A DNA stretch of 64,000 nt, from positions 1 through 64,000 of the forward strand of contig KE159810.1 of assembly GCA_000403495.2 (NCBI GenBank), given 5' to 3'. How positions within the stretch are numbered: the first letter of the stretch is position 1; the number at the start of each line of letters is the position of its first letter. Under the pieces are notes generated by a model, which saw nothing but the letters and a program-made list of their open reading frames with translations, did not search any database and was not told the DNA's origin. Source of the DNA: Lachnospiraceae bacterium 10-1 (GTDB lineage: Bacteria; Bacillota; Clostridia; Lachnospirales; Lachnospiraceae). Made by a program: the position numbers and the translations under genes. This document shows, piece by piece, positions 920 through 3,787 of the stretch.

Positions 920-3787
920 CTACATTTTCTGATAAAAACTACACTGGTAACCATCCGCTCTCAATGGCAAGCCCTCCGCCCATTCTGGCTGTACCGCCAT
1001 GATCTCACACATCTCATCCACGGAGCCGATGCCCTCCGGCACTTCCGCTATAATCTCATCATGGCAGTGCATCACGATAGGATAACCTTTCTTCTCCACA
1101 CGGAGCATAGCCTCCGCCAGTAAATCCCTTGCCGTCCCCTGCACGATGTTCTCCACCAGCTTGGGGCCGTAGGTCTCTATCCGGCTCCATTTCTTGTTTT
1201 CCGCAATGCCCTCATAGGTCAGCCCATCGCGCCCGAATCGGTTCACAGCCATCCTCGGCTTCACATAGGACAGCTTCCGTCCGGACGGGAGCGTGATAAA
1301 TAAAATCCCACTCTTATATTCAAAAATGATCTTCCCGACCTTTGTTTTCTGCTTTTCTGTAACTGCCTTTATTGCGGCGGCATCCACATCCCACCAGAAC
1401 TTTGTAATGTGTGGGTTAGATCTGCGCCAGTCAGCAATCAGCCCCGGAAGCTCCGCTTCCTCCACGCCCATATCCAGCGCACCCATACTTGTAAGTGCGC
1501 CAATCCCGCCGCCATATCCACAGTTATGCACTAAGCGCCCCGATACGGTAAAACGGTGTCTGGAGCCCGCATTTCGTATGTCATAAACTCTAGCCGTGCC
1601 TCTATCAGCCGCCAGTTCTTCCTCTTTTCGTCCACCGCTTTCTGCGCATCTGCAATAATCTCTTCCCGGCTCATCCCATCGGACAGCTTCCTTGTCACAA
1701 CACCCCTTGCATACGGCCACTCGTCCTGATAGAAAAAGGGGATCACGCTGATGCGCCTGTTCGCCCTGTTCACCACACCTTCCACAAAGCGCAGGTTTCC
1801 CGGCTCGTAATGTCCGTTTGTGTCGATACGGTCCAGTTCCAAGTCCCGCCGCACATTCTCCACATTTTCCAGTATCCACAGACCTGCCTCCAGCACGGAT
1901 GCGAAGCGGAACTCGATTCCCCTTCCGCCATACCTTGCATACTGTTTTTCGTTTGGATTCTCGCACCTCTGCTTTGCCGCCGTCAGTCTCCTGTCCAGCC
2001 ACCGGGGTATCTGCCGGGGCTTGGAACACCTCTGGCATCCTTTGGATTTTCCTTCCCTTAAATTTCCTAAACACTGCCACTGTACGCTCCCACATCCCAT
2101 GCACCTTGTCAGCACATAACAGTGGTTCCATGTCTGGCTCCACCGTTTCTCCGGTGAAATGATCTCCACCCATCCGTACTGCGTCCCCACCATTTCCGGT
2201 TTGTATGAGATGTGCGCCGCGGGCGGCGGCGATTCCAAGCTGTACCGGCTCCTGTTGCCCCTGCACCCAGACCGGGTGGTCTGCGGTTGCCCTGAGTCCT
2301 TCATACTCCATGATCTCCTTTCTTCCACGGCAAACCACGCCGTCATGCTTTACCCATTCTTCACCATCCCATAAGAGATGTTCTTCCGTTACATCCTGAA
2401 TCGGCACCAAGCCTTTATCCGTCAGTACAAGGCTGTCTTCTGCAATGCAGGCCAGTTCCGCTACTTTCCCTTTCTGCCGAAGCGGGGAGGTCTTGGTGAT
2501 CTCCTCCACAGGCACATGGAACATGGCGGATGCAGATGCCTCATAAATCTTCCCGTGGGAAGTGAACACATCCAGCCGCCACTGTTCCCCGGAAAGCCAT
2601 GCCAGTACCCTTGCCTCGATTGCGGAAAAGTCTGCCACCACAAAGCGGCATCCCGGCTTCGGGATAAAAGCTGTGCGGATTAATTCTGATAAAACATTCG
2701 GTGTGGAATCATATAAAAGTTCGATATCCTCAAATCTGCCCTGCTTCACAAGCTCCCTCGCCAGTTCCAGATCGGGTAAATGGTTCTGAGGCAGGTTTTG
2801 GATTTGGACCAAGCGCCCCGCAAACCTTCCGGTCCTATTGGCTCCGTAAAACTGCAATAAACCATGAACACGCCCATCTGAGCAGACGCTCCTTTCCATA
2901 GCCTCATACTTCTTCACGGACGTTTTCGCCATTAACAGCCTTAATCTGAGCAGTTCCTCCACTTCCCCGTCCGTCTCCGCTATCATCTCCGCCACCGCTT
3001 TCTTGGAAAGGCTCTCCGCCTCCATCCCCATGTCCCCAAGCCAGCCCTTAAGCTGTGCCACGGAATTGGGGTTCTCTAAGCCCGTCAGTTCATAGGCGCG
3101 TTTCGTCACCACTTCCTTATGGAGCCGCTCGCAGGAAACCGCATTCCTTACCAACTCCATATCCACCAGCACGCCCCGGTCATTGATGCGCTGGTCTAAA
3201 CGGTACAGTTCCATCTCGCTTTCCGGGATTGGAAAATTATGCAGTTTCCTGCGGATGGATTTCTCCACATCCACATCCCTTTTACAGTAAGTCTTGAAAA
3301 GCTCCCACTTCTCCGGCGCATGGCAGGGGAGGTTCCTCGTCCTGCCGCCATTTGCCTTTGTGGGCTTGCACGGGACGCAGAAATACCGGATCAGTTCCTT
3401 GCCTTCCTTCATTTTCTGCTCGTCCAGTCCAAGCACCCTGCCCACATCCTCCAGTGACCGGGGCAGGGCGAGCATAGCCGCCTGTACCGCGCTGCAATGC
3501 CAGGACTCCGGGGGAATGTACCTCCCGAAATATTTAGAAAGGCAGGTGCGCTCAAAATTTGCATTGTATGCCGTCTTGGTCACTGACACATCAAAGATGG
3601 CTTCCTCCACCTCTGCCGGGAGCTTCTCCCCCTGCGCCAGGTCTATGATCTGTGTTTCCCCTCCGTCAAAGGAATAGGCAAACAGTAAAATCTCAAAAGC
3701 AGGGCTGTCCGCATAGGCGTATACCCCGCATTTAATTAAATCCACATCCGAAAACGACTCTATGTCGGCTTCTAAAATTCGCCCCAT
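920..3787 (-). CDS. Phage family A DNA polymerase precursor with intein
   Basis: A 955-residue precursor. The N-terminal exonuclease-like part begins EADIESFSDVDL (DxE). Polymerase motif A is DFSAIEARVLAWLSGE near residue 386, motif B (R-x3-K-x6-YG) begins RQKGKVAELA at 437 and motif C is HCHDEIIAEV near 910. Motif B is split after A446 by a 309-residue intein; without it the chain is 646 residues, normal for polymerases of Clostridia prophages. The start at 3787 has GGAG 8 bases upstream. It follows the DUF2815 and DUF2800 genes, the usual order of these modules. Activity should require intein splicing because the insert sits in the O-helix that binds the incoming nucleotide. Confidence 0.93.
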   Translation of the reverse strand: MGRILEADIESFSDVDLIKCGVYAYADSPAFEILLFAYSFDGGETQIIDLAQGEKLPAEVEEAIFDVSVTKTAYNANFERTCLSKYFGRYIPPESWHCSAVQAAMLALPRSLEDVGRVLGLDEQKMKEGKELIRYFCVPCKPTKANGGRTRNLPCHAPEKWELFKTYCKRDVDVEKSIRRKLHNFPIPESEMELYRLDQRINDRGVLVDMELVRNAVSCERLHKEVVTKRAYELTGLENPNSVAQLKGWLGDMGMEAESLSKKAVAEMIAETDGEVEELLRLRLLMAKTSVKKYEAMERSVCSDGRVHGLLQFYGANRTGRFAGRLVQIQNLPQNHLPDLELARELVKQGRFEDIELLYDSTPNVLSELIRTAFIPKPGCRFVVADFSAIEARVLAWLSGEQWRLDVFTSHGKIYEASASAMFHVPVEEITKTSPLRQKGKVAELACIAEDSLVLTDKGLVPIQDVTEEHLLWDGEEWVKHDGVVCRGRKEIMEYEGLRATADHPVWVQGQQEPVQLGIAAARGAHLIQTGNGGDAVRMGGDHFTGETVEPDMEPLLCADKVHGMWERTVAVFRKFKGRKIQRMPEVFQAPADTPVAGQETDGGKAEVRESKRKTVCKVWRKGNRVPLRIRAGGRSVDTGKCGECAAGLGTGPYRHKRTLRAGKPALCGRCGEQGEQAHQRDPLFLSGRVAVCKGCCDKEAVRWDEPGRDYCRCAESGGRKEEELAADRGTARVYDIRNAGSRHRFTVSGRLVHNCGYGGGIGALTSMGALDMGVEEAELPGLIADWRRSNPHITKFWWDVDAAAIKAVTEKQKTKVGKIIFEYKSGILFITLPSGRKLSYVKPRMAVNRFGRDGLTYEGIAENKKWSRIETYGPKLVENIVQGTARDLLAEAMLRVEKKGYPIVMHCHDEIIAEVPEGIGSVDEMCEIMAVQPEWAEGLPLRADGYQCSFYQKM
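1523..2449 (-). other. Intein in polymerase motif B (precursor residues 447-755)
   Basis: The insert begins with Cys447 (CIAEDSLVLTDKGLVPI, block A), has block B GLRATADHPVWV with the TxxH signature near residue 501, and ends with block F VYDIRNAGSRHRFTVSG and block G GRLVHN before Cys756, the +1 nucleophile. All residues for class 1 splicing are present: Cys1, block B Thr and His, block F Asp and His, penultimate His, terminal Asn and +1 Cys. The extein halves join as KGKVAELA/CGYGGG, the uninterrupted motif. About 180 residues between the blocks (roughly 550-730) resemble no LAGLIDADG or HNH domain in this frame and are rich in Arg, Gly, Lys and Cys. The DNA of that stretch encodes an endonuclease ORF in another frame. 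Confidence 0.95.
1531..2304 (-). CDS. Putative homing endonuclease, overlapping the intein out of frame
   Basis: A 257-codon ORF lies wholly inside the intein, shifted +1 relative to the polymerase frame. It carries two CxxC pairs (CMGC near residues 68-71, CQRC near 90-93), then RLTAAKQRCENPNEKQYA, YGGRGI near 125-130, DRIDTNGHYEPGNLRF near 158-173 and NRANRR. I know this set from stand-alone zinc-finger phage proteins treated as HNH-like homing endonucleases. ATG 2304 is preferred because GAAAGGAGA lies 9-10 bases upstream; the same frame stays open back to 2346, and the conserved region begins near 2193. The 5' end overlaps the block B codons and the 3' end overlaps blocks F and G. Family membership is from motif memory; activity is inferred. 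Confidence 0.75.
   Translation of the reverse strand: MKDSGQPQTTRSGCRGNRSRYSLESPPPAAHISYKPEMVGTQYGWVEIISPEKRWSQTWNHCYVLTRCMGCGSVQWQCLGNLREGKSKGCQRCSKPRQIPRWLDRRLTAAKQRCENPNEKQYARYGGRGIEFRFASVLEAGLWILENVENVRRDLELDRIDTNGHYEPGNLRFVEGVVNRANRRISVIPFFYQDEWPYARGVVTRKLSDGMSREEIIADAQKAVDEKRKNWRLIEARLEFMTYEMRAPDTVLPYRGA

Follow-up and report, generated by a model that had tools for sequence, protein, structure and literature searches.

A class 1 intein in a phage-type DNA polymerase gene of Lachnospiraceae bacterium 10-1 with a probable homing endonuclease gene overprinted in its +1 frame

The window analysed here, a stretch of 64,000 nucleotides from Lachnospiraceae bacterium 10-1 (GCA_000403495.2, contig KE159810.1, positions 1 to 64,000), contains a phage family A DNA polymerase gene interrupted by an intein, and the DNA of this intein carries, in a second reading frame, a gene of the HNH endonuclease type (Table 1). 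An earlier note, made from the sequence of the window, had proposed an intein-containing polymerase frame with a nuclease encoded one base off, which open reading frame (ORF) analysis and conservation confirmed: the polymerase frame has no stops through 1523-2449, and the HNH frame is offset from it by one base. The insertion point is flanked by GKVAELA and CGYGGG of the polymerase, and the host genome (4.57 Mb) harbors one copy of the element. The longest ORF of the HNH frame, 1531..2346 on the minus strand, encodes 271 amino acids, and from the conserved ATG (1531-2304) the product has 257; of the 257-271 codons given in the note, the shorter form was supported by the conserved ATG at 2304 and a Shine-Dalgarno-like site, whereas the start at 2346 was not, as many relatives have HNH-frame stops shortly upstream of the ATG.

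Table 1. Features of the polymerase locus, with positions in the window
Feature	Position	Strand	Evidence
ORF of the phage family A DNA polymerase with its intein, 955 aa	920..3787	(-)	Pfam DNA_pol_A, phrog_17 DNA polymerase
Class 1 intein, 309 codons, between polymerase ELA and CGYGGG	1523..2449	(-)	Splicing blocks; site empty in other alleles
N-terminal splicing domain, intein codons 1-97, blocks A and B	2159..2449	(-)	Conservation, pLDDT 83-91 (residues 1-80), Foldseek to inteins
C-terminal splicing domain, intein codons 285-309, blocks F and G	1523..1597	(-)	Conservation, AF2 model
Linker part of the intein frame, codons 97-280, lying over the HNH gene; disorder predicted	1610..2161	(-)	pLDDT <50 at 92-280; dN/dS
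Nested HNH endonuclease gene, frame +1 relative to the intein, 257 aa and a stop codon, probable start at ATG 2304	1531..2304	(-)	PHROG match, motifs, AF2, start conservation
AGGAGA resembling a Shine-Dalgarno site, 9 bases 5' of the nuclease ATG	2314..2319	(-)	Start-site and codon-usage analysis
Zinc-ribbon cysteines C68/C71 and C90/C93 of the HNH protein	2026..2103	(-)	Invariant in 17/17
HNH catalytic region, YGGRGI to NRAN	1759..1932	(-)	Motif invariance
Double-coded stretch 1, intein codons 49-96, constraint on both frames	2162..2305	(-)	Overlapping-frame dN/dS
Double-coded stretch 2, intein codons 285-304, constraint on both frames	1538..1597	(-)	Overlapping-frame dN/dS

The intein exhibits the full class 1 residue set that the note had attributed to it, namely C1, T55-x-x-H58 of block B, VYD of block F and the terminal H308-N309, with Cys+1 next. 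C1, T55, H58, D290, H308 and N309 are invariant in 17/17 aligned sequences (window included), and Cys+1 is present in 38/38 full-length and 6/6 mini intein rows. For the intein frame, the AlphaFold2 (AF2) model is confident around residues 1-80 and 281-309 (predicted local distance difference test, pLDDT, of 81-91 in the blocks) and falls below 50 at 92-280, with a mean pLDDT of 51.4 over the whole chain; in Foldseek its best matches are the NpuDnaE and Ssp inteins (probability 1.00, best E 1.9e-3), and the model is consistent with the HINT fold of intein splicing domains. By its sequence the insert is a class 1 intein, presumably removed by protein splicing. The shifted frame matches the PHROG profiles phrog_374 'HNH endonuclease' (9.9e-20) and phrog_3377 (4.8e-16), and the two CxxC pairs (C68, C71, C90 and C93), YGxRGI and D158/R159...N170...N179/N182 are invariant in 17/17 aligned HNH-frame sequences, which bears out its assignment to the zinc-finger type of phage homing endonuclease. 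Its AF2 model reaches fair confidence between about residues 21 and 180, with low values at the two ends (mean pLDDT 69.7, predicted template modelling score 0.43), and the models of the two frames are complementary, with the intein ordered at its ends and the nuclease over about residues 21-180.

Relatives were gathered by scans of viral contigs and bacterial genomes, giving 173 loci, of which 167 have both splicing blocks and represent 94 distinct intein DNAs, some near-identical; L016, L035, L083, L087, L092 and L093 have no pair of N and C blocks and were dropped. The counts are not a census, the scan with the intein as query (A2) comprising the best 80 of 159 matches and the A3 scan the best 80 of at least 587. 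The relatives come from Lachnospiraceae, Clostridium, Selenomonas, Gardnerella, Corynebacterium, Allofustis and others. No stop interrupts the polymerase frame in 93 of the 94 distinct inteins; the exception, L065, is a recombinant remnant with 13 polymerase-frame stops and was left out of the 39-row analyses described below. At about 3000-4800 of L065, what is left of a prophage lacks the initial portion of the intein, and its HNH frame is joined to the end of a sigma-like gene. The HNH lies in frame +1 in all 88 inteins longer than 250 codons, and one HNH profile run against the 94 distinct inteins gave matches in neither the polymerase frame (0/94) nor frame +2 (0/94), in agreement with the earlier claim that the intein contains no in-frame endonuclease; the best 80 of 159 matches of the intein-query scan likewise displayed only out-of-frame or deleted HNHs. 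Stops in the third frame number 11-34 per full-length intein counted. The remaining six inteins are short (120-168 codons), with HNH-frame traces in five and none in L171, and together with L285, an additional nuclease-less short intein outside the 94, they answer the search for same-site inteins lacking the nested ORF, the six having lost most or all of the HNH. Among the sequences examined, no homologue carries its nuclease in frame, and both frames are conserved.

Selection on the two frames was assessed with 39 nonredundant 309-codon inteins (<95% identity) drawn from 109 full-length ones, window included, and the ratios of nonsynonymous to synonymous substitution (dN/dS) for overlapping frames were estimated by a simple version of our own of an overlapping-gene method, with pairs among 52 distinct 309-codon inteins. 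Among the 39 inteins, codons 1-60 and 301-309 vary most at the third position of the polymerase codon, and codons 73-288 at its first position, which is the wobble position of the HNH frame. For codons 1-46, dN/dS was 0.86 in the HNH and 0.13 in the polymerase frame among 20 close pairs (85-98.5% identity), and 0.65 and 0.08 among 76 pairs at 70-85% identity; for codons 49-96 the respective values were 0.18 and 0.18, and 0.25 and 0.27; for codons 97-280 they were 0.06 and 0.40 in the close pairs, while at 70-85% the HNH frame was saturated and gave no value and the polymerase frame gave 1.07; and for codons 285-304 they were 0.05 and 0.06, based on few changes in the close pairs, and 0.35 and 0.32. 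This pattern indicates that the intein owns the ends, the nuclease owns the middle and two stretches serve both. Synonymous shuffles of the HNH frame produced a mean of 11.2 polymerase-frame stops in codons 61-288, with 0 observed in 39/39 inteins; the open polymerase frame thus exceeds chance, and the results indicate that both frames are under selection. The per-frame dN/dS and the synonymous simulation were both checks that the note had proposed, and its view that the nuclease is the evolved frame and the intein frame a linker kept open held (0.06 vs 0.40; 0 vs 11.2 stops), with the amendment that codons 97-280 are linker-like and the nuclease also overlaps true splicing-domain code at both ends. 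A natural control was provided by the 80 loci kept from a scan with HNHs of the sister group: the 13 best are nested in another frame of a 696-1207-codon ORF, and in the remaining 67 no long frame runs across the HNH (a partial match in L251 is covered by a frame of 94 codons; the HNH of SAP012, L177, is covered by no other long frame), indicating that an HNH gene by itself does not keep another frame open.

The insertion site was empty by pattern in 78 of 91 fetched polymerase loci, and seven further loci were empty when read singly, namely L264, L265, L267, L282, L287 and L306, as well as L299, which is empty here and has an intein elsewhere; L285 is the short intein named above, L338 gave no match, and the loci read singly were all of the pattern-negative ones but L296, L303, L308 and L311. 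Some contigs occur twice in the output of the two extein scans, so that the loci are not independent. The empty polymerases include ones with N-exteins 94% and 90% identical to that of the window. On an extein tree of 38 full, 6 mini and 61 empty rows (86 empty loci reduced at 97%), the three allele states require 25 changes, the minimum being 2 and the shuffled mean 36.6; full, empty and nuclease-less alleles are interleaved, as in a mobile element, and since 25 is below the shuffled mean the states are also clustered. The intein thus occurs sporadically at a single conserved position of its host gene. At +1, empty alleles have Leu in 46/61 and Cys in 15/61 cases, and occupied ones have Cys in 44/44. 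Cys at +1 is a requirement of splicing, and its presence in all occupied alleles could reflect co-conversion during homing or the choice of Cys-bearing targets. Identities of the HNH and of the splicing domain correlate at 0.69, a value partly built in because the two share DNA, and their correlations with the exteins are 0.59 (HNH; Spearman) and 0.48.

Taken together, the insert is very probably, as judged from its sequence and that of its relatives, a mobile class 1 intein, with its homing endonuclease encoded by a gene of its own that is overprinted in the +1 frame. An ancestral HNH gene may have entered a dispensable region of the intein, where selection on the polymerase would have kept the other frame clear, or purged it, of stops and frameshifts. 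The polymerase frame would yield a precursor in which the splicing domain is split by a predicted unstructured linker, and excision of the intein would leave an intact polymerase; ribosomes would separately start at an internal Shine-Dalgarno site and ATG within the N-terminal splicing domain, as codon-level constraint suggests, and produce the HNH protein. The distribution of alleles suggests that this nuclease may cut intein-less polymerase alleles at ELA^(L/C)GYGG, and that repair from an occupied allele may copy intein and nuclease together.

Several results weigh on the other side. Pfam returned no significant match for the intein alone, NCBIfam likewise named polymerase parts only, and an intein profile gave only weak matches among solved structures, the best (0.11) being a polymerase intein. 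For the HNH frame, nothing significant was found in Pfam or NCBIfam, a search of solved structures with an HNH profile yielded no relative up to E=1, and Foldseek matched the model weakly to PacI alone (E 0.09), so that the HNH identity rests on the PHROG families and the motifs. The scans with HNH queries are biased to HNH carriers (the intein-query scan is unbiased in that respect), the dN/dS values come from our own simple estimator, with few changes behind those of the C-terminal overlap in close pairs, and the HNH-extein distance correlation indicates vertical inheritance too. The proposed start is not ATG in 4/39 relatives (three ACG, one ATC), and the first ~12 HNH codons seem unconstrained in the HNH frame, which makes the start uncertain; in sister group B, the Shine-Dalgarno-like matches of the conserved start do not rise above background.

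Initiation of the nuclease at an ATG of its own, inside the intein, is nevertheless likely from the sequence around it. The ATG at 2304, formed by polymerase Tyr49 (TAT) and a next codon beginning with G, is ATG in 35/39 relatives, and the AGGAGG-like site ~9 bases upstream matches at five or more of six positions in 18/39, against 6.3% of background positions. Glu45, the central codon of this site, is GAG in 29/35 cases compared with 57/190 of other splicing-block Glu codons (p=5e-9), and the preference for TAT at Tyr49 is weaker (p=0.04); two of the 39 carriers, which lack clean exteins, were omitted from the codon/extein correlation analysis. A Shine-Dalgarno-like site with constraint at codon level favours internal initiation. 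A conserved NTG near -34 in group B was discounted as start evidence, as it can follow from the intein motif EW (GAA/GAG then TGG). The alternative that the HNH protein has no start of its own and is fused by programmed frameshifting to the N-terminal half of the intein would fit the four relatives without ATG and the HNH frames open across the whole intein in L006, L027 and L070; the strongly constrained Shine-Dalgarno-like site, the 35/39 ATG and the HNH-frame stops just upstream in many relatives render it improbable.

That the insert is a group I intron with an HNH gene, with the open polymerase frame incidental, is considered very unlikely. Group I introns are removed at the RNA level, and no intein blocks are expected in them; here the class 1 blocks are conserved in the polymerase frame, this frame is under constraint in both end regions and stop-free in 93/94 inteins, and the short inteins also preserve it. 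The record of Sodalis phage SO-1 (L354) assigns the nested ORF, gp39, to a type I self-splicing intron, but the SO-1 polymerase frame runs through the insert and carries intein blocks. Phage polymerase genes are reported to carry group I introns with HNH genes (PMC3428280), and I-PfoP3I shares with the present element an HNH nuclease, a polymerase host gene and a separate ORF. No Rfam intron match was found in the window, L174, L354, L004, L299 or L355, a weak argument since the possible positive control ICP2 (L357) gave none either; L004 had one sub-threshold, chance-type match to a non-intron family. It is equally hard to credit that the HNH gene is a relic with a frame conserved merely through the intein frame: the loss of most or all of the HNH in 6/94 distinct inteins, and in L285, is in keeping with decay, but over codons 97-280 the constraint falls on the HNH frame (0.06), with relaxed values for the intein frame (0.40 among close pairs and 1.07 at 70-85%). 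Paired sequencing or assembly errors as the source of the frameshift, for which nothing speaks, are refuted by the register shared by 88/88 distinct long inteins from isolates and metagenomes and by deposited phage genomes, leaving a negligible probability.

Canonical class 1 inteins, including those with HNH nucleases, harbor blocks A, B, F and G, carry the nuclease between B and F, and spread by homing. The present element resembles such in-frame-endonuclease inteins (Dalgaard et al. 1997) in its splicing blocks and probable spread by homing, and differs in that their nuclease is a domain of the intein polypeptide, whereas here it would be a separate gene in the other frame. The nearest published case in the literature covered (Arsenault, Gosselin, Gogarten 2025, PMC11855218) is the ShiLan insertion, which hides an out-of-frame HNH in an actinobacteriophage DNA methylase; it is likewise an in-frame, stop-free insertion in a phage gene with an out-of-frame zinc-finger HNH, sporadic presence and proposed homing, but its authors detected neither an intein splicing domain nor a ribosome-binding site and expect the insert to stay unspliced. 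Unlike ShiLan, the element described here has a class 1 intein of a DNA polymerase as its host frame and a Shine-Dalgarno-like site before the nuclease, and selection on both frames was estimated. An out-of-frame HNH in a methylase is also mentioned in the consulted text of the Applejack announcement (PMC12613952), and a 2025 Gosselin preprint on actinobacteriophage inteins of 'non-canonical architecture' is cited by PMC11855218 for overlapping reading frames and may treat similar arrangements. In the literature covered, including passages of PMC5050341 and PMC8425127, with the Gosselin preprint and Gorbalenya 1998 outside the comparison, no out-of-frame endonuclease inside an intein was found described; for inteins this agrees with the note's remark that no description of the arrangement was known to it, and an out-of-frame HNH in an in-frame phage insertion is already in print (ShiLan, PMC11855218). 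Salmonella phage vB_SenS-Ent1 (GenBank HE775250; L353), a member of the +2 group treated below, has an annotated polymerase intein recorded as 'encoding splicing domains' only, its +2-frame HNH being unannotated.

If the overprinted reading is correct, the overlap would act as a lock, as frameshifts in the nuclease would also break the polymerase, and the nuclease could be lost only via in-frame deletion or point changes tolerated by the other frame. Inteins are usually described as a splicing domain with, often, an in-frame homing domain. Here splicing and homing would share DNA and not a polypeptide, which would decouple nuclease expression from splicing and would explain why at least one such polymerase intein, that of Ent1, is annotated with splicing domains only. 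The element would also be a natural case of overprinting, with an old HNH gene in one frame and a forced linker in the other, and makes it testable whether gene overlap shields a selfish gene from decay; it further suggests that inteins regarded as endonuclease-less merit rescanning in the other two forward frames.

Similar arrangements were observed in other polymerases. An HNH in frame +2 is present in polymerase inteins of Jerseyvirus (Sp4, Ent1), Pseudomonas MR14, EBPR siphovirus 2, Vibrio 97.13, Sodalis SO-1 and 13 metagenomic phages; this group, from proteobacterial phages and with HNHs of the sister group, occupies the same site or one about four codons upstream. In a third polymerase region, inteins with the HNH in +1 lie at (E/Q)N^C in L299, L173, L160, L162, L163, L164 and L166, and a few codons upstream of it in Caulobacter phage GB2A. 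In a quick HNH tree of 112 rows, rooted for drawing only, the +1 and +2 site-1 groups fall together with a Shimodaira-Hasegawa-like approximate likelihood ratio (SH-aLRT) support of 90 (99 and 98 for each alone) and the third-region group falls among free-standing HNHs (83), which makes at least two origins likely. Synonymous shuffles of 25 +2 or third-region genes gave means of 1.6-10.7 host-frame stops against 0 observed, and zero stops was not unusual for L178 (P 0.12). It is fairly likely that dual-coded inteins represent a general mobile class with at least two origins, at least three places in polymerases, both alternative registers, an internal nuclease start of their own and an overlap acting as a lock. 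Bacillus phage Troll (L356) was considered by annotation alone and ICP2 by annotation and the Rfam search; a PT94 'dUTPase' match is known from annotation alone. The helicase near the polymerase of Ent1 (L353, 4607-5489) is annotated with a LAGLIDADG intein and, if that annotation is right, both nuclease architectures lie near each other in this phage. The polymerases of L160, L162, L163, L164 and L166 apparently contain two inteins each, both with out-of-frame HNHs, the first intein being identical in L163, L164 and L166, and L173 apparently combines a nuclease-less short intein and a dual-coded intein in one polymerase.

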